A stretch of DNA of 7,093 nt from an archaeon (GTDB lineage Archaea > Hydrothermarchaeota > Hydrothermarchaeia > JALTZZ01 > JALUTC01), in NCBI GenBank assembly GCA_027051265.1, contig JALTZH010000012.1, forward strand, positions 1 through 7,093, read 5' to 3'. Shown piece by piece: positions 5,411-7,093 of this stretch. The position numbers and the translations under genes are program-made. The notes beneath the pieces are model-generated. The model was not told the DNA's origin. It saw only the letters and a list, made by a program, of their open reading frames with translations, and ran no database searches. Numbering within the stretch: the first letter of the stretch is position 1; each line of letters starts with the position of its first letter.

Positions 5411-5470
5411 ATTATTAGTGATGAATGATGGGCGAACTGATAAGTGATGATCCCTGGAGTAGCTGAGATT
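5411..5470 (+). ncRNA. Dual-guide C/D-box sRNA (core 5418-5466)
   Basis: The core has all four boxes in canonical form and order: box C GTGATGA at 5418-5424, box D' CTGA at 5437-5440, box C' GTGATGA at 5444-5450 and box D CTGA at 5463-5466. Both guide spacers are exactly 12 nt and the D'-C' spacer is 3 nt, the compact symmetric layout of archaeal 2'-O-methylation guides. The D' guide (ATGATGGGCGAA) complements the archaeal 23S rRNA A-loop segment UUCGCCCAUUAA, recalled from memory, over 11 positions with one G-U pair. The D guide (TCCCTGGAGTAG) complements CUACUCCAGGGA, matching the 23S segment just before GAUAACAGG up to lineage variants. By the N+5 rule the targets would be near E. coli C2558 and U2441. 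The RNA would assemble with L7Ae, Nop5 and fibrillarin. The terminal stem is weak, the outer ends are approximate, and no clear TATA box was found. Confidence 0.9.
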
Positions 5471-5473
5471 TGC

Positions 5474-6505
5474 TTATCGCTTTTTTCTTTCGATAATTTT
5501 CTTTTTTCTAGTTTTCATCTCTTTTTTTATTTCATCTACTCTCTTCATCAAATCTCTTTTAAGTTTATCCGCATAATATCTGTTTGAGAAAGCATCGAGT
5601 TTTGCTGCTATAGCAATTTTTGCAGCCAGACTTCTTGCTATTTTTCCTCTATATTTCTTAGGGAAATTTCTTACCAAATAATGTTGGAACAGAATGCCAT
5701 GTTTTGGAGGTGTTGCTTTTCCTGAGAGATGTTTAAACAAAGCTTTTTCTGCACCAATAACCTGTATCGTACTTGCAGGTAATGTTGCAAGTTTTTTCAA
5801 ACCTCCAGCCATTGATAGAAGTTTTGCACCTAAAAGAGGACCAGCTATTTCAGAAAGATTTGGAGCATATTCTCTCATTCTTTCTTTAATGTAACTCTCC
5901 AACGTTTCCCTATATCTGTATAACTGTTCTAAAATTTTTGAAAGTCTATGAACAACGTTTAAATCTCTTTCATCAAAATCTGCACCAGCTGATTCTTTTG
6001 CGAGATTTTTATACTCTTTGAAATTTTCTCTACTCTTATATTTTGATACCAACTCTACAATCTTTCTATTGTTTCTTACAATTTTTATTAGTTCAGGAAA
6101 ATGTAAGCCGTAGAATTCTTTAAGTCTAGCGATCAATATATTTATAACTTGATCAACATCTTCTAAAGATTCTACAGCTTGTATTATTAAATTATCCTGA
6201 TTTGAAAACGATTCCTTTAATTCATATTTAGCGAGTTCTATAGAAAATCTATGTAGATAATCATAATACTCTCTTTTATCAATCTTTACGTATTTAAGCA
6301 GGTCATCGAGTTTTTCTAATACTTCCCTATCATAAATATATTTATAGTTTTTATATTTTTTAATAATCTCTTTCTCTTCTTCACTTTTTTCTTTGAATTT
6401 TTTTACAACATCTTCGATACTACCTTTAAACCTTTTAAATTCTAATACATTTCCATCTTCATCTAAAACAAAGATTCCTAAAGGATTTTTATAAATAAAG
6501 TACAT
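5474..6505 (-). CDS. nop5: Nop5 (NOP56/58-family) core protein of C/D-box sRNPs
   Basis: Archaeal Nop5 is the scaffold that joins L7Ae-bound C/D guide RNA to the methyltransferase fibrillarin for 2'-O-methylation of rRNA and tRNA. The protein has 343 residues, slightly shorter than many orthologues. The N-terminal fibrillarin-binding domain occupies about 1-100, coiled-coil helices about 105-215 (with YGLHFPEL at 132-139), and the Nop RNP-binding domain about 215-325. The Nop domain includes APNLSEIAGPLLGAKLLSMAG (214-234), the signature GAEKALFKHL (251-260) and PPKHGILFQH (266-275). A basic tail (about 325-343) ends in a Lys/Arg run. All expected parts are present. Fibrillarin, the usual neighbour, is not beside it; the space past its stop holds a convergent C/D-box sRNA. 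A TATA-like box gives leaderless spacing at the ATG. Confidence 0.96.
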   Translation of the reverse strand: MYFIYKNPLGIFVLDEDGNVLEFKRFKGSIEDVVKKFKEKSEEEKEIIKKYKNYKYIYDREVLEKLDDLLKYVKIDKREYYDYLHRFSIELAKYELKESFSNQDNLIIQAVESLEDVDQVINILIARLKEFYGLHFPELIKIVRNNRKIVELVSKYKSRENFKEYKNLAKESAGADFDERDLNVVHRLSKILEQLYRYRETLESYIKERMREYAPNLSEIAGPLLGAKLLSMAGGLKKLATLPASTIQVIGAEKALFKHLSGKATPPKHGILFQHYLVRNFPKKYRGKIARSLAAKIAIAAKLDAFSNRYYADKLKRDLMKRVDEIKKEMKTRKKKIIERKKR

Positions 6506-6536: not shown

Positions 6537-6552
6537 TTGAATCAGGTATTAC

Positions 6553-6709
6553 ACTGACCTCCTTCCCACTCTAAAGGACGAGGATTCCTTGCGCGGAGGT
6601 TTATGCTTCTGCAAGAGAGACCTGCAGAGGCATAGGGTAAGCCAGCACCCGGTTAAACCTTACTCTTTCAGATCCTCTAATCCTGCTCCTTACGGAGTAG
6701 ACTTAGAGG
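6553..6709 (-). ncRNA. Probable TnpB omega RNA (reRNA) scaffold and right end
   Basis: TnpB of IS200/IS605 elements is guided by an RNA made from the 3' end of tnpB and the element's right end. Here the minus strand folds well. First, 6709-6703 pairs with 6680-6674 (CCTCTAA/TTAGAGG) and encloses a CTCC-GTAA-GGAG hairpin with a GNRA-type loop; this overlaps the last tnpB codons. Second, 6660-6654 pairs with 6603-6597 (AGGTTTA/TAAACCT) and closes a three-way junction. Inside it are a GGGT/ACCC hairpin (6650-6635) and a long TGCCTCTGCA/TGCAGAAGCA hairpin (6632-6604) with one mismatch. A subterminal hairpin follows at 6584-6560. The guide would be the flanking sequence after the end, reading toward nop5. 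Pairings were made by eye; expression is unknown. Confidence 0.6.
6608..6628 (-). repeat. Hairpin TCTGCA / TGCAGA within the omega RNA
   Basis: The arms 6608-6613 and 6623-6628 are perfectly complementary with a 9-nt loop. After one mismatch the stem extends by three more pairs at 6604-6606 and 6630-6632. It is the strongest local stem in the right-end region. Confidence 0.6.
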
Positions 6710-7086
6710 ACATCATTGAGACGAGGGCTATATTTAGCGTAGCTACGACGTCTCTATGAGCTTCTACATCGCAGTTAAGACATTTAAACAATTACCTTTT
6801 TTAATGAACAAGGCTGATCCACACCAAGTGCAACGGGAGGGGGGGTATTATATTCATTTACGGGTTTAACTTCAATACCGAAGTTTTTGGCTGTGATTTT
6901 AATTCTTTGGATGATATATCTATAGCTGAAGAAGTTGTGGATAATAGCATTAACTTTCTTGTCTTCGTTATTGTTTCTTCTTAAATCTTTGGGATTACCG
7001 ACGAAGATAGTTTTAACGTCTTTTTTCAAGCGAAGCTTAACAAAACTATGAACAGCTATGTTAATAGGTGGTTTAAAAAATAATTA
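6690..7086 (-). pseudogene. tnpB: tnpB (IS605 OrfB-type RNA-guided nuclease), frameshifted C-terminal part
   Basis: The C-terminal half of a TnpB can be read only by changing frame twice. Frame one gives KTIFVGNPKDLRR, a SYRYIIQRIKI helix, and GIEVKPVNEYNT with the second RuvC acidic residue (Glu of VNEY). A C7 run at 6845-6839 then breaks it; removing two C restores NTPSRCTWCGSALF, the first zinc-ribbon CxxC. A lost T near 6788-6786 breaks it again; adding one T gives CFKCLNCDVEAHRDVVATLNIAL, with the second CxxC and the last RuvC Asp (HRD). The zinc-ribbon and RuvC III spacing then match intact family members. Frame one has a stop at 7086-7084, where earlier coding sequence would be expected, so more damage lies upstream. 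An 81-codon stretch from a TTG at 7029 to 6784 is only a remnant. The protein is presumed inactive. Confidence 0.85.
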
Positions 7087-7093
7087 GAGAAAG

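Follow-up and report, generated by a model that had tools for sequence, protein, structure and literature searches.

A predicted box C/D sRNA gene of Hydrothermarchaeia that joins an sR26-type 23S guide to a new partner guide

The closest described counterpart of the element analysed here is sR26 of Pyrococcus furiosus, published as GCGAGCAAUGAUGAGUGAUGGGCGAACUGAAAUAGUGAUGACGGAGGUGAUCUCUGAGCUCGC, whose D' substrate (GCUUCGCCCAUCAC) has been used for in vitro methylation studies (PMC7089733). Its D' guide is GAUGGGCGAA, while its D guide (GGAGGUGAUC) fits the 3' end of the 16S rRNA. Guides that depend on a tRNA intron are also already known, namely those for C34 of pre-tRNA-Met in Pyrococcus (sR49) and Haloferax (PMC2584109). 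For Methanopyrus kandleri, rearranged C/D genes were described whose box-bounded guide modules pass from one gene to another and trade places (Dennis et al. 2015, PMC4644070). Circular forms of C/D sRNAs are frequent (PMC7994747).

The window, a stretch of 7,093 nucleotides from a Hydrothermarchaeia metagenome-assembled genome (MAG), contains an element of this kind on its plus strand, next to the convergent nop5 gene. Its features are as follows:

5418-5466, plus strand: body of the C/D-box sRNA from box C through box D, based on sequence, shuffles, Rfam and relatives
5414-5416, plus strand: 5' arm of the terminal stem, pairing with 5467-5469 (A-U, U-A, U-G), based on the Rfam RF00095 alignment and a covarying stem position in 24 sequences
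5418-5424, plus strand: box C, GTGATGA, kept in relatives
5425-5436, plus strand: D' guide ATGATGGGCGAA, with 23S helix 92 (TTCGCCCATCA) as target, a predicted Cm at E. coli C2558 and a match to P. furiosus sR26
5437-5440, plus strand: box D', CTGA, kept in relatives
5441-5443, plus strand: D'-C' spacer TAA, 3 nt, read from the sequence
5444-5450, plus strand: box C', GTGATGA, kept in relatives
5451-5462, plus strand: D guide TCCCTGGAGTAG, best target 16S GTACTCCAGGGG with a tentatively predicted Um at E. coli U678; relatives have CCCTATGAGC
5463-5466, plus strand: box D, CTGA, kept in relatives
5467-5469, plus strand: 3' arm of the terminal stem, based on the Rfam RF00095 alignment and covariation
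5481-5491, plus strand: T-rich tract 3' of the sRNA, within the 3' end of nop5, a possible archaeal transcription termination signal judging from the sequence
5474-6505, minus strand: nop5 (aNop56), the convergent neighbour (Pfam Nop, 1.6e-63), whose product belongs to the sRNP that would work with this sRNA

An earlier note on this DNA had described two GTGATGA boxes, two CTGA boxes, two 12-nt guides and a 3-nt D'-C' spacer within 49 nt, and this reading is exact: the order is GTGATGA-ATGATGGGCGAA-CTGA-TAA-GTGATGA-TCCCTGGAGTAG-CTGA. The sequence hallmarks of an archaeal box C/D sRNA are present (RUGAUGA boxes C and C', CUGA boxes D' and D, guides of about 10-13 nt and a terminal stem). The window has a single strict box array, 0 of 3,000 dinucleotide-preserving shuffles of it contain one, and a relaxed array likewise gave 0/3,000, which agrees with the claim that chance is a poor explanation. 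The GC content also lies above that of the surroundings, as had been noted, with 46.9% in the sRNA vs 28.6% in the window and 24.3% in the upstream spacer. The proposed check with a C/D model was carried out with Rfam, where several archaeal C/D sRNA families matched the same place and strand (E 0.0006-0.006), but all with scores below the gathering thresholds (31.9 vs 45 bits for RF00095 snoPyro_CD and 27.5 vs 45 bits for RF01152 sR1). Scans for sigma-70 promoters and stem-type terminators, which are ill-suited to archaea, returned nothing. As regards the description as previously unannotated, missing annotation is expected for such genes in MAGs.

Conservation was assessed for the first half of the gene, the 22-nt C-guide-D' module TGATGAATGATGGGCGAACTGA. 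Allowing up to three mismatches, it was found in 18 of the 23 Hydrothermarchaeia genomes, including all 14 of good quality (at least 90% complete, at most 5% contaminated). As an exact pattern, the module was present on 113 contigs, for example of Methanobacteriales, Thermoplasmata, Methanococci, Archaeoglobi, Altiarchaeota, Diapherotrites and Nanohaloarchaea. The sole contig labelled Methylococcaceae (L082) has no further boxes and may be a chance match. The module search gave no match in the only other genome of the window's genus (G001, 81% complete), so that the window's D guide has so far been seen in one genome only. In 24 aligned sequences that share this gene order, the boxes hardly vary and the terminal stem covaries, with double changes at all four pairs (19 cells vs 6.3 after shuffling); shifting the stem partner along the alignment wipes out this signal. 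The stem in the window is weaker than those of the relatives, with just three pairs, one of them G-U. In three loci (L220, L222 and L223, from G011, G010 and G012), the D'-C' spacer is a hairpin instead of 3-5 nt, and these sRNAs therefore have stems at both ends; this form may be an intermediate on the way to a circularly permuted gene. The earlier note had proposed to look for conservation of boxes and guides in relatives and had named conserved flanks with unconserved boxes as the refuting pattern. The opposite was found for the boxes and the D' guide, which are kept while the flanks are not; the D guide is lineage-specific.

Targets were assigned by the N+5 rule, by which methylation falls on the nucleotide that pairs with guide base five, counted upstream from box D' or D. 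As there are no 16S and 23S genes in the window's own MAG, the rRNA targets rest on relatives of the class. The D' guide forms 11 contiguous pairs with TTCGCCCATCA of 23S helix 92 (rRNA of G006), and 0 of 400 shuffled guides matched the 23S rRNA as well. With E. coli U2552 as anchor, the base opposite the fifth guide base corresponds to E. coli C2558, so that complementarity to rRNA in the N+5 register is given for this guide with the 23S rRNA of class relatives; in the rRNA of G008, helix 92 is covered by N letters. In archaea, helices 90-93 are known as a methylation hotspot (PMC4644070). Elsewhere in the window's genome, 13 of the 30 guides in 15 other sRNAs score at least 10 against rRNA, compared with 95% and 99% quantiles of 9.0 and 10.3 for shuffled guides, and we conclude from this that the genome has a genuine set of C/D sRNAs. 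In two Altiarchaeota loci (L102 and L140), GATGGGCGA and GCGAACAACCT appear as guides, in one order in the first genome and in the reverse order in the other. Each is complementary to the A-loop region of the 23S rRNA; since their targets overlap, the two cannot share one rRNA at once.

Taken together, box and D' guide conservation, the covarying stem, the 23S complementarity and the identity to the sR26 D' guide bear out the proposal of a dual-guide C/D-box sRNA. Sequence comparison thus confirms 5418-5466 as a real and ordinary, though so far predicted, box C/D sRNA gene with a new partner guide beside an sR26-type 23S guide. The window shares with sR26 the C-guide-D' module TGATGARTGATGGGCGAACTGA, the order of elements and the D' substrate sequence, and its D' guide agrees with that of sR26. 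However, the sR26 D guide (CGGAGGUGAUCU) fits the 16S 3' end, whereas the window has TCCCTGGAGTAG at this position, and owing to this difference we do not class the sRNA as a full sR26 orthologue. A guide resembling the sR26 D guide (AGGAGGTGATCA) occupies another sRNA of the same genome (contig C256, from position 1512). There, positions 1512-1610 (L034-L036) hold two fused C/D sRNAs whose D and C boxes overlap (CTGATGATGA). The resulting array has four guides, the first of which, AGGAGGTGATCA, matches the 16S 3' end.

In most Hydrothermarchaeia members, the second guide reads [AG]CCCTATGAGC. Its complement, GCTCATAGGG, sits at the exon-intron junction of elongator pre-tRNA-Met, where the gene of these relatives reads CTCATA-GGG followed by the intron, and the N+5 position is the wobble base C34. 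The second guide of most Hydrothermarchaeia orthologues thus resembles the known C34 guides in spanning the intron junction. The D guide of the window differs from them in that it does not fit tRNA-Met, its best score with any tRNA being 6.3 (tRNAs in 30 tRNA loci of the genome), by which a tRNA target was ruled out; the relatives' guides do fit. The elongator tRNA-Met lacks the intron (CTCATAACGCGG) in both genomes of the genus, the window's and G001, and consequently the old C34 guide would have lost its fit; neither genome contains the pattern GCTCATAGGGT. G001 contains a C/D array with the guide GCGTTATGAGCT, which pairs exactly with 11 bases of the intronless tRNA-Met. This array (L273 1432-1514; contig C112, about 1857) has three guides, of which GCGTTATGAGCT is the last. 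With the pattern used, no tRNA-Met C34 guide was matched in C/D context in the window's own genome. In G002, a member of the same order in which the intron is present, the two guides lie in separate sRNAs (L197 and L225).

For the D guide, the best candidate target is 16S GTACTCCAGGGG, with which it forms 11 contiguous pairs (10 Watson-Crick and one G-U) and an N+5 position at E. coli U678. Since 11 of 400 shuffled guides equal this match, the assignment to U678 in the window's lineage is tentative. Searching the class for the pattern CCCYGGAGTA followed by CTGA gave six other places, none in C/D context. The D guide might instead be an orphan that has no substrate, with only the D' half functional and the D half kept for the k-turn. 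Orphans are frequent among guides (PMC7994747), the genus no longer has the former tRNA-Met target and the 16S match is only modestly above chance; we regard this reading as a substantial, if minority, possibility. It has to be set against the 11 contiguous pairs in the right register, in a 16S segment that was read in several relatives, and against the lack of any comparable tRNA match. We keep 16S U678 as the most probable target. Replacement of the guide after loss of the intron fits the pattern seen in the two genomes of the genus, from which alone the order of events is deduced. A fuller scenario, in which intron loss removed the old substrate, the window guide was re-aimed to the 16S rRNA and a guide newly matched to the tRNA without intron (as in G001) rescued C34 methylation, appears possible but rather doubtful. 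If true, re-aiming and rescue would constitute documented coevolution of a guide RNA with a tRNA intron. More genomes of the genus would bear on the agreement between D guide and 16S complement, on the intronless tRNA-Met and on the GTTATGAGC guide.

The coordinates agree with the placement given in the earlier note: box D lies 7 nt from the stop codon of nop5, in convergent orientation. Proximity of this kind could suggest a functional arrangement, such as antisense control of the nop5 mRNA or co-regulation of RNP protein and guide. We consider this highly improbable, since the sRNA and the coding sequence do not overlap, a distance of 25 nt or less to another gene is frequent among C/D sRNA genes (PMC7994747), and no other module locus had nop5 in its fetched flanks by tblastn (up to 1.5 kb for class genomes and up to several kb for named contigs). 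The hint that the adjacency matters is thus not upheld, and it is best read as incidental. C/D sRNA genes, moreover, can often do without a separate promoter (PMC7994747). BLAST matches of the region in G002 (locus L010) belonged to a CTP synthase-like gene, not to nop5. The Nop5 protein of the window has 343 amino acids; its match to aNop56, a model of 417 positions, begins only at residue 60 and stays under the curated cut-off, so that its N-terminal, fibrillarin-binding domain appears short or divergent. Just upstream of nop5, positions 6541-7093 carry either what is left of an IS200/IS605 TnpB gene or its end (TIGR01766, 3e-7, 6784-7029, minus strand); the GC-rich stretch after it may be omega RNA or the end of the element.

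That the locus is a chance or degenerate copy, with box-like motifs and no transcribed RNA (a pseudogene), deserves hardly any credence: the weak terminal stem and the divergent second guide would suit it, but the four perfect boxes, the empty shuffles and one guide preserved class-wide speak against it.

The two guides also occur in permuted order. Hydrothermarchaeia have the 23S guide in first place (11 loci), whereas in 39 loci, nearly all of them from Methanobacteriales, the tRNA-Met guide is first and the 23S guide second. As in Methanopyrus, guide modules bounded by boxes have changed places; here, however, the same guide pair is swapped between clades and not between paralogues of one genome. 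Because swapped orders and mobile modules (PMC4644070) as well as circularity (PMC7994747) have been described, these permuted orders extend a known phenomenon.

Overall, the locus very probably encodes an sRNA whose sR26-type D' guide is directed to 23S C2558 and whose D guide was replaced in this lineage, most probably by one for 16S U678, while the guide of the relatives fits C34 of pre-tRNA-Met. If transcribed, the sRNA would be bound by L7Ae at its C/D and C'/D' k-turns and would then be joined by Nop5 and fibrillarin. Each guide would position its substrate, and the nucleotide opposite the fifth base upstream of D' or D would receive a 2'-O-methyl group. The D' guide would direct methylation of 23S helix 92 just 3' of the A-loop, and the D guide most probably that of the 16S rRNA at U678. 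In related genera, the second guide would instead serve C34 of the intron-containing elongator pre-tRNA-Met.

These results add Hydrothermarchaeia to the known range of sR26, an archaeal guide RNA module that is among the best studied. The guide beside the 23S A-loop is nearly unchanged in many archaeal groups, and its partner guide is exchanged from clade to clade. With its tie to the tRNA-Met intron, the partner guide offers a testable case of guides gaining and losing substrates. The finding is of modest interest, which lies in the guide's apparent response to the loss of a tRNA intron and in the permuted gene orders between clades.
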